From positions 1 through 32,026 of the forward strand of contig JAAWOG010000045.1 in assembly GCA_022799355.1 (NCBI GenBank): a stretch of DNA of 32,026 nt. Reading direction: 5' to 3'. The stretch is from Lachnospiraceae bacterium. GTDB taxonomy: Bacteria > Bacillota > Clostridia > Lachnospirales > Lachnospiraceae. The notes beneath the pieces were generated by a model. That model was not told where the DNA came from. It saw nothing but the letters and a program-made list of their open reading frames with translations, and made no database searches. Within the stretch, counting starts at the first letter, position 1, and every line of letters starts with the position of its first letter. Below are positions 16,411 through 19,344 of the stretch, piece by piece. Position numbers and translations under genes: made by a program.

Positions 16411-18021
16411 TTATTCTGCCGGCAATTCCGCACCGGCATCGCCGGACTCCGGCGTACCTTCCATGCCGCCTTCCGCTCCCAGTACGCCGTCAACTCTGTC
16501 CTTATATTTTACACGATAGATCCGCATCAGGGATTCATCAATACGGCTCTCCTCCAGTGAACCGCTCTGTACCGCCTGCAGCAGCCCCGTATATGCCTCC
16601 TCAAACTTCTCCGGCATATAAATCATGTCAACGCCTGCGCGCAGCGCCTTCTCCGCCGCATCCGCGGAAGTATAATATTCCGTAACCGAACTTTCATTCA
16701 AAGCTCCTGTTATGATGATCCCATCATACGCCAGATTATTCCGAAGCAGCCCAACGGCTGTTGTGGAAAGACAGCAGGGCGTATTATCCCCTGTCACGTT
16801 TGGCGCCGATATGGTTCCCACCATAACAAATTCACTGCCTGCGGCAATGGCAGCCTGGTAAGCCGAAAACTCCGCCCCTTCCATATCAGCCTGGCTCCGC
16901 TGCGTATCCGCCATTCCGCTTTCGGTTGATTTTGTAACACCGCCCAAACCGGGGAAAGTCTTCACACAGGCACTGACGCCCTTTCCTGTCAGCCCCTGTA
17001 CATAAGCCGCCGCCATCTCTCCTACCTGTGCCGGATCGGAACCAAAACTCCTGTTTCCGAGAATGCTTTCCTCTGATGTTTTGACATCCGCTACCGGTGC
17101 CAGGTTCAAATTAAAACCATACTCCGAAAGATAAGCCCCCGTATTATCTCCCGCCTGAAATGCGCCGTCCACTCCGCCTGCCGATGCCATATCCGGTACT
17201 TCCGTCACGGAAAGTTTGGATGCCACCACGGAATTTTCACCGCCCTCTTCGTTCACAGCCAGAAACAAGGTCTGATCGATCAGCGCCGTATTGCTCAAAA
17301 GCTCTTTCAACTGATCATCACCGGTAATATTTTTTTCCGTATAGACAAGCCCGCCCACTTTATATCTCGTAAGCGCTTCCTTTGTGGTATCGCCTGCCTT
17401 TGTCACACTGTCCACACCGGTAAGCTGTTCCGGCGTTACCATAAATAATGCCGCAATTTTATCTTCCAAAGGCATCTCCGCAATTCTTGCGGTCACTATT
17501 TCATCTAAGGGACTAAGAGCCGGCTCCTCCGCCTGTCCCGTATTCTCAGGCGTATCTTCCAGTTCTACGGACGGCTCCTCTGACTCATCCAATGCCGCAA
17601 GCTGTTCCTCCTGCTCCTTCGCCTGTTTATTTTCCTGAAACTTTTGCAGGACCTTTTTCCCACCCAGAAAGCAGCCGCCGACCGCACCCGCAATCAGTAC
17701 GAGAACTACCGCATACGCAAGAATCTGGTTCCTGATCCGGCGCGCACGCCGACGGGCACGTTTTACGCTTTTATTATCCGGTTCATAGTCCTCCTCGTCG
17801 TCATCGTCTATTTCTTCTTCATCATCTTCCTCGTCGTCGTCATCTTCATATTCCTCATCATCGTCATCTATCTCGTCTTCGTCGTCATATTCTTCGTCGT
17901 CTTCCTCATCATCGTCATCTTCATACTCATCTTCTTCATATTCCTCATCCTTCGCAAAAAGACGCCTCTTTTTTAATTCTTTCTCTGAACTTTTGTTTTT
18001 TCCCGCTTTTGTTTTTTTCAT
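16411..18021 (-). CDS. Membrane-anchored glycoside hydrolase family 3-like protein, probably catalytically inactive
   Basis: 536 aa from the ATG at 18021, which has GAGGAAATT directly upstream; a GTG 13 codons earlier lacks a ribosome binding site. Layout: short basic start, an extreme Asp/Glu-rich tract (about residues 25-80), an Arg-rich patch, one membrane helix (about 98-118), a coiled and acidic linker, then a GH3 (NagZ-like) barrel from about 170. The barrel is recognisable (GGVTKSTESGMADTQ, ALRAGVDMIYMPEKFEEAY, ESRIDESLMRIYRVKYK). However, the NagZ KHFPGHG motif reads KTFPGLG, the nucleophile Asp of the T-D-A/D-L segment is Gly (IIITGALNES), and the Asp of D-Q-E-G-G-R is missing (VNEEGGENS). 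It probably binds cell-wall sugar or acts structurally outside the membrane. It has its own terminator. Confidence 0.85.
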   Translation of the reverse strand: MKKTKAGKNKSSEKELKKRRLFAKDEEYEEDEYEDDDDEEDDEEYDDEDEIDDDDEEYEDDDDEEDDEEEIDDDDEEDYEPDNKSVKRARRRARRIRNQILAYAVVLVLIAGAVGGCFLGGKKVLQKFQENKQAKEQEEQLAALDESEEPSVELEDTPENTGQAEEPALSPLDEIVTARIAEMPLEDKIAALFMVTPEQLTGVDSVTKAGDTTKEALTRYKVGGLVYTEKNITGDDQLKELLSNTALIDQTLFLAVNEEGGENSVVASKLSVTEVPDMASAGGVDGAFQAGDNTGAYLSEYGFNLNLAPVADVKTSEESILGNRSFGSDPAQVGEMAAAYVQGLTGKGVSACVKTFPGLGGVTKSTESGMADTQRSQADMEGAEFSAYQAAIAAGSEFVMVGTISAPNVTGDNTPCCLSTTAVGLLRNNLAYDGIIITGALNESSVTEYYTSADAAEKALRAGVDMIYMPEKFEEAYTGLLQAVQSGSLEESRIDESLMRIYRVKYKDRVDGVLGAEGGMEGTPESGDAGAELPAE

Positions 18022-18080
18022 AATTTCCTCATTTTTTGATGCTTGTCCTTTACTTTCCACTGCTCATTACCTACGTGGAC

Positions 18081-18089
18081 ATGATACCA
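18081..18089 (-). promoter_or_regulatory. Candidate extended -10 promoter of the GH3-like gene
   Basis: On the minus strand TGGTATCAT fits the TGn-TATNNT extended -10 form, about 60 bp upstream of the ATG at 18021 and just after the terminator at 18151-18187. No convincing -35 is visible. If real, the gene is transcribed separately from the repeat-bearing unit upstream. Confidence 0.4.
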
Positions 18090-18150
18090 TATCTTGTTGC
18101 AAATTTCCATATGAAATAAGTTCTAAAGCAAAAAAGTTCTCGTACGTTGT

Positions 18151-18187
18151 AAAAGAGGGTACCAGTCTTTTCAACTAATACCCTCTT
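18151..18187 (-). terminator. Terminator closing the repeat-bearing transcription unit
   Basis: On the minus strand AAGAGGGTA (18187-18179) pairs perfectly with TACCCTCTT (18161-18153) around a 17-base loop, followed by TT. This gives a CTCTTTTAC tail. It lies at the far end of the unit started by the promoter at 19090-19117. Confidence 0.65.
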
Positions 18188-18224
18188 CTAAACTATGCTG
18201 TCCAATGGTTCAACCTCCATTTTA

Positions 18225-18269
18225 TTACGTCAATCTATATGAAGTTTTGGCCTTCTGCTTCCTTTCCAT
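18225..18269 (-). CDS. Possible 14-residue peptide (MERKQ...) near the end of the repeat-bearing transcript
   Basis: The ATG at 18269 gives MERKQKAKTSYRLT and then TAA TAA. The first five residues fit the M-x-x-K-Q start of the unit 4 and unit 8 frames, and a purine-rich GCAGAGAGA precedes the ATG. The Y-G-P core is absent. It could be a diverged further unit or coincidence. A following frame from 18220 (MEVEPLDSIV) ends at the terminator. Confidence 0.2.
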   Translation of the reverse strand: MERKQKAKTSYRLT

Positions 18270-18382
18270 TCTCTCTGCTATGTACCTTTGTACCGTAACG
18301 TTTCTTCTTTTCTTTCCTTCTCTTTTCGTTACCTTTTCAGATGTACTCGTCCGCTTCAGTTTGTTTCCGGTTCCATATTCTT

Positions 18383-18520
18383 TTATGGTAAAAATTTATG
18401 TTTTAGGTGGCCCGTACCTCCTTTGCTTAGATTCCATGATTTATATATTTCATCGGTGTTCACCGCTGTACCACTAATTCTGACTTCCCCTCCGATCTTT
18501 TTGCGATCATCAGGTTTCAT
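18383..18520 (-). CDS. Possible 45-residue small protein in the repeat-bearing transcript
   Basis: An ATG at 18520 opens a 45-codon frame beginning MKPDDRKKIGGEVRISGTAV and ending HLKHKFLP. It overlaps repeat unit 8 in a different frame. A weak AAGAG lies about ten bases upstream. It has no recognised motif, is basic and shows no signal peptide. Given the A+G-rich composition it may be chance; it is listed because it is the longest minus-strand frame found inside the predicted transcript. Confidence 0.2.
   Translation of the reverse strand: MKPDDRKKIGGEVRISGTAVNTDEIYKSWNLSKGGTGHLKHKFLP
18396..18437 (-). CDS. Possible 13-residue peptide of repeat unit 8
   Basis: The ATG at 18437 gives MESKQRRYGPPKT then TAA. 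It has the same length and spacing as the unit 4 peptide although the two units are about 480 bp apart and differ at many bases, including the Gly codon (GGG against GGA), the Tyr codon (TAC against TAT) and the stop (TAA against TAG). There is no ribosome binding site upstream of the ATG. The segment AAAGGAGG inside codons 5-7 is itself a perfect Shine-Dalgarno sequence, but here it is not followed by an ATG. Confidence 0.3.
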   Translation of the reverse strand: MESKQRRYGPPKT

Positions 18521-18871
18521 TGTATTCTCTTATCCTTATATTTCGATTCCGATCTTCCCCACTTATTCTCTGCTGACCTATCTGTTCAGCAGGATTCTCA
18601 GTCTTCCCCTTGCTCTGATCTGCCTCCTGGTTTGTACCGTCTTCTCGATATTCTGATTTTGAGTTTACTTTTAATGGCCCATTGGTCTATACCACCTTTA
18701 TCATGTTTTATTTTATTTCTCTATCCTGTTTCTTTATTTTTGATCAGGGCTGAACTTTCATCCGTCCATTGCCCCTTTACCTTTCTTATTCTATTTTTAC
18801 TTTTTTGAGCTTTCTCTTACCTGCCCATTGGTCCGTACCTCTCTTGTCCTTTTCTTCTTTAAGCCTTCCTT

Positions 18872-18913
18872 CTACTTGTCCATTGGTCCATACCACCTTT
18901 GTTTTCGTATCAT
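18872..18913 (-). CDS. Possible 13-residue peptide of repeat unit 4
   Basis: An ATG at 18913 opens a frame reading MIRKQRWYGPMDK and then TAG. It aligns without gaps with the 13-residue frame of unit 8 (MESKQRRYGPPKT), sharing M1, K4-Q5-R6, Y8-G9-P10 and the stop position. No good ribosome binding site precedes it (CCGGA only). Units 2 and 3 have the same start region (ATG or GTG) but are one base short in an A5 run, so their ATG frame leaves the Y-G-P frame. A single -1 slip there would restore a 13-residue product. Real translation is unproven. Confidence 0.3.
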   Translation of the reverse strand: MIRKQRWYGPMDK

Positions 18914-19089
18914 TCCGGTTTTAATTTACTTTTTCATCGGACCATACCGCCTTTGTTTTTGATCACTCCGGTTTTAATTTACTTTTTCATTGGACCGTAC
19001 CGCCTTTGTTTTTGATCATTCCGATTTCAATTTACTTTCTCATTGGACCGTACCGCCTTTTCTTTTTTGTTCTCTCTGTTTATGTTTCC

Positions 19090-19117
19090 ATTATAGCACC
19101 TTAAATATAATTGTCAA
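19090..19117 (-). promoter_or_regulatory. Near-perfect sigma-70 promoter driving the repeat-bearing unit
   Basis: On the minus strand TTGACA (19117-19112) and TATAAT (19095-19090) are both exact consensus hexamers with a 16-bp spacer. They are flanked by A/T-rich sequence upstream like an UP element. Predicted transcription starts near 19083 and enters repeat unit 1 about 23 bases later. This is the strongest promoter by sequence in the window. The 227 bp between it and the LUD gene (19118-19344) are A+T-rich; nothing further was recognised there except the LUD ribosome binding site. Confidence 0.85.
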
Positions 19118-19344
19118 TACATTTTTTTAAAAATCTTTAAATTTTTTTATTCTTTTTGAATCAGGTATGATTTATTTGATTTTTCAGAAAATTCTGACAA
19201 TTTATCAGTTTTCTATACCGGTAATCCACCGCTATCCGCCTCTTGCTTTCCGGCTGCTTTTATACTACACTTAAAAAAACGCTGCTGTTCTATGAGCAGA
19301 ATGCCTCTTTTGGGGCCAAACTATCATATAAGGAGAATACTGTT

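Follow-up and report, generated by a model that had tools for sequence, protein, structure and literature searches.

A standalone RNA gene of Lachnospiraceae with Shine-Dalgarno units, start-stop minigenes and a terminator-adjoining five-codon ORF

Organization of the gene at the source locus

The window analysed here, i.e. the whole stretch of 32,026 nucleotides of a Lachnospiraceae contig, carries on its minus strand between positions 19043 and 18671 seven units composed of Shine-Dalgarno (SD)-like purines, about 9 nt of spacer, an AUG, two codons and a stop. In a reading of the minus strand from 19800 to 17600 all seven were present where the initial annotation had placed them, with the first bases of their ATGs at 19043, 18990, 18937, 18883, 18828, 18769 and 18682. 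By sequence reading the minigenes are (peptides are written without their stops throughout) ATGAGAAAGTAA (unit 1, MRK, 19032-19043, its ATG and TAA being unchanged across all nine aligned genus members), ATGAAAAAGTAA twice (units 2 and 3, both MKK, 18979-18990 and 18926-18937, recognized as recent copies by repeat analysis), ATGGACAAGTAG (unit 4, MDK, 18872-18883), ATGGGCAGGTAA (unit 5, MGR, 18817-18828), ATGGACGGATGA (unit 6, MDG, 18758-18769, SD region diverged) and ATGGGCCATTAA (unit 7, MGH, 18671-18682, read also in the genus alignment). Five of them end in TAA, one in TAG and one in TGA. Start-to-start spacings are 53, 53, 54, 55, 59 and 87 nt, and TRF and a repeat finder reported a 53-bp array of 3.5 to 4 copies. 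With one of four 53-nt copies taken as the reference, the other three were 94%, 85% and 70% like it; because the similarities of 94% and 85% show recent duplication, the array was counted as about five independent units, which bears out the earlier statement that units 1 to 3 are recent near-identical copies and not three independent events. Sites with SD, ATG, one or two codons and a stop numbered 7 in the 941-nt transcript region, versus 0.84 on average, and never more than 6, across 2000 dinucleotide-shuffled versions of that region.

The number of units differs among the nine aligned genus members. A counterpart of unit 7 was found in 7 of the 8 other members, being absent from L070 and reading MK in L047, and a degenerate unit without ATG (GACGGTACAAACC, 18629-18641, minus strand), recognized by sequence reading and in the genus alignment, reads MGDIV in the relative L043. 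In four genus members (L041, L042, L043 and L070) ATG-GGC-TGA stands where the source locus has ATG-GGC-AGG-TAA. The spacing in the regular part of the array is 53-55 nt at the source locus and 49 to 59 nt in the other genus members. Since a ribosome footprint is about 34-38 nt according to PMC8708949 and the units are about 53 nt apart, this spacing would suit a single ribosome on each unit.

Together these units form the 5′ part of a standalone gene. The promoter that had been proposed for it was found as claimed at 19117-19090 of the minus strand, with TTGACA (19117-19112), a 16-nt spacer and TATAAT (19095-19090) by sequence reading. At the other end, sequence and fold identified an intrinsic terminator (18149-18187, minus strand) with the stem GAGGGTATTAG..GGTACCCTC at 18185-18155 followed by a T-rich stretch. 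The initially annotated interval 18396..19060 set the end of the element too early, as the gene reaches about 18150; besides the seven units the element comprises a start-less unit, the degenerate ATG-less unit and a UUG-started terminal ORF. As far as sequence allows a judgement, transcription is apparently strong.

Between the array and the 3′ end, at 18438-18389, lies the start-less unit, here called the core (UCUAAGCAAAGGAGGUACGGGCCACCUAAAACAUAAA), with a perfect SD (AAAGGAGGU from 18424), a small hairpin of the form GG.GGU-loop-NCC.CC and no start codon. It was identified on the minus strand by a match of the R1 model (E 8.3e-7) and by pattern search. By sequence reading, an ATG ORF for MKYINHGI (18427-18453, minus strand) begins after ..CGGTGAACACCG, overlaps the core and ends at the UAA of the core's UCUAAG; it is shorter in some relatives (MNI, MK, MKV). 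The terminal mini-ORF, UUG-GAC-AGC-AUA-GUU-UAG (MDSIV, 18188-18205, minus strand; sequence reading and unit collection), has its SD (GGAGG) at 18214-18218 of the same strand by sequence reading, and its stop directly adjoins the terminator. This ORF, for which there is codon-level evidence of translation, had gone unreported in the initial annotation.

RNAalifold applied to the nine genus members predicted 58 pairs, of which 4 showed a compensatory change, so that the covariation support is poor; the terminator was clear and the remaining structure weak. The RNA is purine-rich and, by this prediction, looks mostly open. A helix flanking the core (UUUAAG..CUUAAG type) appeared good by eye in a few loci and was rejected, being absent from the consensus fold. 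A long-range pairing of GUCCAAUG in unit 1 with CAUUGGAC at the terminal ORF is predicted, and its eight pairs hardly vary. Around the terminal start, many loci contain the self-complementary GUCCA-N-UGGAC, and in the source genus this site can form 8 base pairs with GUCCAAUG of unit 1; it could be a dimer or long-range contact. Further recurring stretches were seen by eye: a AACTTCATATAGAT-like short stretch upstream of the terminal ORF (18246-18233 at the source locus, and in many longer members), GACGAGAAAGTATTAT or GACGAGTACAT mid-molecule in longer RNAs, and a GGTATC..GATACC-like sequence that is often common to terminator stems across the family.

Downstream of the terminator lies a gene (16411-18060, minus strand) that a Pfam search, carried out for the source-locus gene only, assigned to Glyco_hydro_3 (PF00933, E 1e-54), and the nearest downstream ORF in all 8 other genus members belongs to the same cluster. 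The gene begins with a long Asp/Glu-rich stretch of variable length (17789-17949), which was also seen by eye in L041-L048.

Distribution and conservation in Lachnospiraceae

The core pattern AAGNAAAGGAGGTACRGRCCRCC matched at least 119 contig stretches. Among these, 80 match titles were listed, and all named Lachnospiraceae, genera that we assign to this family, or broader Clostridia/Eubacteriales groups, save one Verrucomicrobiota MAG. The Verrucomicrobiota locus was rejected as a member, since the match lacks a promoter, has an unlike context and is ascribed to chance. According to the record titles, the carriers include a Blautia schinkii isolate and an Enterocloster bolteae MAG. In a family sample of 299 Lachnospiraceae genomes from 298 genera (nearly one per genus), a longer core pattern with at most 2 mismatches was found in 56 genomes, compared with 1 for the reversed pattern. 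A covariance model of the core matched 47 of the 299 family genomes, while a class-wide search matched 1 of 291, which was the source genome itself; both counts are lower bounds, as 20 candidates were scored per genome. Within its own genome the model matches the RNA once. The counts given here take no account of sequence relatedness.

A nucleotide search of 61 genomes matched the source genome, all 8 other genus members and 6 genomes outside the genus (E 1e-5 to 1e-3), two of which (G023 and G027) carry a short form of the gene that has a promoter, a core, a terminal ORF and a terminator. The exact core pattern had 0 matches in viral contigs, and a phage origin was rejected on this count. The Rfam 15 covariance models gave no match at E<=10 in the source locus (18000-19250). 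In 8 other loci, searched at E<=1, they gave two tRNA genes and three matches to eukaryotic families below gathering scores, none of which lies on the RNA as far as coordinates show. Neither ggagguacgg nor ggaggtacggacc or ggaggtacgggcc was found in the literature text searched, and the RNA was not found described there, supplementary tables, where such motifs may be listed, being outside the scope of that search. The RNA family is apparently undescribed.

Standalone architecture is usual among the members. Of 80 related cores having at least 300 nt of upstream sequence, 70 have in the 400 nt before them a promoter that reaches a score of 11 or 12 of 12, versus 3.9% of 1600 random positions, and the rest scored 10 (8 cores) or 9 (2 cores). 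In 39 further loci that had not been looked at before, 34 had a promoter scoring 11-12. Neighbour genes fall into many unrelated clusters and are conserved only within clades. In L071 the gene is present as two complete tandem copies, the terminal peptides of which, MDNEY and MDSEY, differ by N/S and by a synonymous Tyr codon.

No part of the RNA is kept as widely as the start-less core, and the terminal ORF, too, is kept more widely than the array. The core's AAAGGAGGU, which has no start codon behind it, is a perfect nine-base complement of the 16S 3′ end (..GGCTGGATCACCTCCTTTCT). The 16S stretch ..CACCUCCUUUCU was present in 5 of 5 family genomes queried, while a search of the source genome's own assembly for the anti-SD stretch (..GGCTGGATCACCTCCTTTCT) returned none. 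The base before AAAGGAGGU, which the search pattern did not fix, is A, C or T in 27, 25 and 24 of 76 distinct cores and in 14, 11 and 14 of 39 further cores, and G in none of either set; sequence relatedness is not considered in these core counts. Since a G at this place would add one pair to the helix with ..CACCUCCUUUCU and is never seen, selection seems to cap the SD helix at nine pairs. The small hairpin GG.GGU-ACGG-ACC.CC covers part of the core SD and, as predicted, would hide most of it.

Variation of the terminal ORF and of the internal units

Terminal units were collected on two requirements, a CCN-NTG and a strong hairpin followed by a T-rich tail; the first start base and the stop were both left unconstrained. 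Units were obtained from 102 of 149 loci (90 distinct) and, once the 39 further loci had been added, of which 30 yielded one, the distinct units came to 108. The starts are ATG in 67, TTG in 34, GTG in 5 and CTG in 2; both CTG rows (L173 and L178) are wrong picks in neighbouring DNA, the genuine terminal units of these loci being MDSIV and a UUG-started ORF, and other likely wrong picks, e.g. L098, L114, L140, L150 and L218, were kept in the counts. After five codons a stop follows in 76 of the 108 units (TAA 33, TAG 25, TGA 18), and TGG follows in none, versus about 6 expected from independent columns. Codon 2 is Asp (GAC or GAT) in 88 of 108, and three pentapeptides, MDSIV, MDEIA and MDEIV, appear repeatedly with synonymous differences. 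Of 101 terminator-like hairpins located up to 1 kb downstream of cores, 24 directly adjoin a five-codon ORF that has CC before it, versus 0 of 1125 other hairpins in the same loci; when CC was not required, 14 of these 1125 did so.

The automatic search returned no terminal unit in 47 of the 149 loci; some of these contigs are cut, some have another spacer and in some the stop is lost. A clade including Mediterraneibacter records has the terminal ORF MIEISV or MIEISG behind such a different spacer. L065, L076, L092, L106 and L107 have lost the terminal stop and read on to a frame of 10 codons that ends inside the terminator (MDEIVKRRIS type), in L058 the terminal ORF has no early stop, and several rows have 6 to 9 codons. 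Taken together, the terminal ORF varies as a translated gene does, under constraint at the codon level that is read from sequence variation. To our knowledge, it would rank among the shortest ORFs with codon-level conservation.

The internal units present a less clear picture. Among 78 distinct internal SD-CCN-NTG units, 50 have a start, two codons and a stop, 9 a start, one codon and a stop, and 1 a start directly followed by a stop; 5 have five codons, four of these being terminal-type units that slipped in, and 13 are longer. Thus, the minigene layout of SD, start, one or two codons and stop is found in the seven source-locus units and in 59 of the 78. An in-frame stop occurs within 3 triplets of the start in 60 of 78 units, versus 9 and 4 in the other frames. 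However, a stop triplet at the equivalent place without a start codon is found in 92 of 127 distinct core units, and the stop used at that place is almost always UAA (49 UAA, 3 UAG). Earlier replacement stops are about equally frequent in units with a start (8 of 26) and without one (7 of 35), and were set aside as uninformative about internal-unit translation. Because start-less units keep the stop triplet and replacement stops are equally frequent, UAA is partly a property of the unit motif, and UAA after two codons may be an RNA motif. The earlier observation that the stop position is kept while the sequence drifts was therefore upheld for stop placement and lost much of its weight as evidence for translation of the internal units, which, judged by these patterns, is not as secure as translation of the terminal ORF.

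A repeat peptide R-x-Y-G-P-M running through the units, with degenerate bases at third codon positions, was also considered and rejected, since spacer length and sequence vary and, by eye, unit 1 in this reading has an in-frame stop and no start upstream.

A second array was found in another genus (L192), with eleven CCR-ATG sites, eight of which have a start, two codons and a stop (six MYT, two MGT); where it is regular its sites recur every 51-53 nt, and its last ORF, read by eye, is MNSEC, which a terminator follows. As internal AUG units are missing altogether from many members (e.g. L066, L088, L095 and L131), the array does not define the family and is a lineage-specific part of the RNA, elaborated in some members.

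Possible roles of the RNA

The gene structure, the conservation, the codon constraint of the terminal ORF and the exact SD complementarity are read from the sequence itself; beyond them we infer that the transcript would be strongly made, bind 30S subunits and act in trans. The reading that we favour, with about even chances on present sequence data, is a standalone RNA gene built to engage ribosomes, which would serve as a trans-acting ribosome decoy or sensor. It retains from the initial annotation the idea of a ribosome-loading element, in so far as the units persist throughout the genus and reappear in further genera, and the transcription unit looks made for ribosomes. The start-less core hairpin with its perfect SD could hold a 30S subunit with no protein started. 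In some lineages, that of the source locus among them, core-like units carry an AUG and have multiplied into minigenes about 53 nt apart, with room for one ribosome each. The RNA could then load, and quickly release or park, 30S subunits and initiation complexes in trans, either acting as a decoy or sensing how much initiation capacity is free, while the terminal ORF would tie the state of the 3′ end to translation. Against this reading count the hairpin that hides most of the core SD, the stop triplet of start-less units and the similar frequency of replacement stops with and without a start, the 47 loci that gave no terminal unit automatically, and the poor covariation.

The chief rival, which we consider unlikely overall, is that the units bind an RNA-binding protein, as in a CsrB-like sponge or with a KH-type protein, and that their likeness to SDs and start-stop units is a by-product. 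The conserved motif would then be the small hairpin GGU-AYRG-NCC flanked by UAAG and KUAAR. That the motif is kept also without AUG, that the +9 triplet of internal and core units is nearly always UAA and not UAG or UGA, and that the hairpin is small and almost invariant all suit such a protein site, whereas the coding-type variation of the terminal ORF and an exact SD of nine bases that stops where G is avoided do not. CsrB/RsmZ-type sponges are standalone RNAs with many copies of an SD-like purine motif, and in both respects the present RNA resembles them. Unlike them, it has units without a constant GGA loop, an ORF with coding-type variation and a core SD that matches the anti-SD exactly. 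A sponge for CsrA itself was rejected, as the spacers of the AUG units (ACGGUC, AUAGAC, AAAAAC, AAGGGC) do not keep GGA.

A cis-acting attenuator, in which translation of the terminal ORF would put a ribosome on the terminator and permit read-through into the next gene, appears improbable. In its favour, a terminal ORF was found in 59 of 92 loci, and in these 59 its stop falls between -4 and +3 nt relative to the terminator stem (the script allowed up to +10, and one of the 59, L083, is a chance pick). On the other hand, what the nearest downstream ORF is depends on the clade, and in 31 of the 79 loci having such an ORF (simple ORF calling) it runs on the opposite strand; downstream genes in the source genus have promoter-like sequences of their own by eye, and no antiterminator was found by eye. 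A conserved regulated downstream gene, as a leader peptide or attenuator calls for, was not found among the many neighbour clusters, and with neighbouring genes that differ between clades the translation-controlled leader considered in the initial annotation had to be given up.

Minigenes of the lambda bar type, in which two- or three-codon ORFs release peptidyl-tRNA and drain tRNAs or peptidyl-tRNA hydrolase, are similarly hard to credit. Lambda bar minigenes reportedly act by tRNA starvation. The layout is alike, with an SD, an AUG, one or two codons and mostly UAA, and the lambda bar, axe-txe and ler-leader minigenes share with the present units the SD, the AUG, one or two codons and the stop. 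PMC8708949 states that minigene toxicity is favoured by short length, a strong SD and UAA, and that the axe-txe minigenes act in cis within a leader. Here, by comparison, arrays occur in a standalone cellular RNA alongside an SD hairpin that lacks a start and a terminal ORF joined to the terminator, many members (those named above without an internal AUG unit) have core and terminal ORF only, and the codons of the internal units are not kept. That the pentapeptide itself (MDSIV, MDEIA, MDEIV and relatives) is the product that matters is likewise given little chance, for although Asp at codon 2 and the recurrence of MDSIV and MDEIV across genera with synonymous differences speak for it, residues 3-5 vary widely (MDNEM, MDTEH, MDKAV, and MIEISV in one clade) and length and position stay mostly constant while residues change.

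Two other known systems were set aside. ToxI type III antitoxin RNAs consist of tandem repeats between a promoter and a terminator, a layout that the present RNA shares; unlike ToxI, it has dissimilar units, variable neighbours and no ToxN-like gene downstream at the source locus, where the Glyco_hydro_3 gene follows and the source stretch holds no toxin gene. The TwoAYGGAY motif, listed for human gut and Clostridiales in PMC2864571, resembles the ACGGAC/AUGGAC sequences found here; it and the other Rfam families were rejected, with no covariance-model match at the source locus and 8 other loci.

A further near system is OLE RNA, a large Bacillota non-coding RNA that, as stated in PMC12054373, binds bS21 through a mimic of the SD/anti-SD duplex. 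Both are Bacillota non-coding RNAs linked to the SD/anti-SD site, and OLE RNA shows that such a link is possible for an RNA of this kind. OLE RNA, however, is highly structured and carries an anti-SD mimic, whereas the RNA described here carries SDs, is purine-rich, has weak predicted structure and has no Rfam match.

We tentatively propose, with rather less than even confidence, that the RNA represents a new class of bacterial regulatory RNAs that would occupy ribosomes, in which a start-less hairpin with a perfect SD parks 30S subunits, arrays of minigenes are added at intervals of one initiation complex and a five-codon ORF is locked to the terminator, so that the whole could serve across Lachnospiraceae as a tunable ribosome sink or sensor. 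If this is true, translation signals would be the working part of an RNA and not a means of making protein, which would be a new mode of RNA regulation. Given a core motif that 56 of the 299 sampled genomes carry, in a family important in the gut, the proposal is testable in existing RNA-seq and metatranscriptome data.
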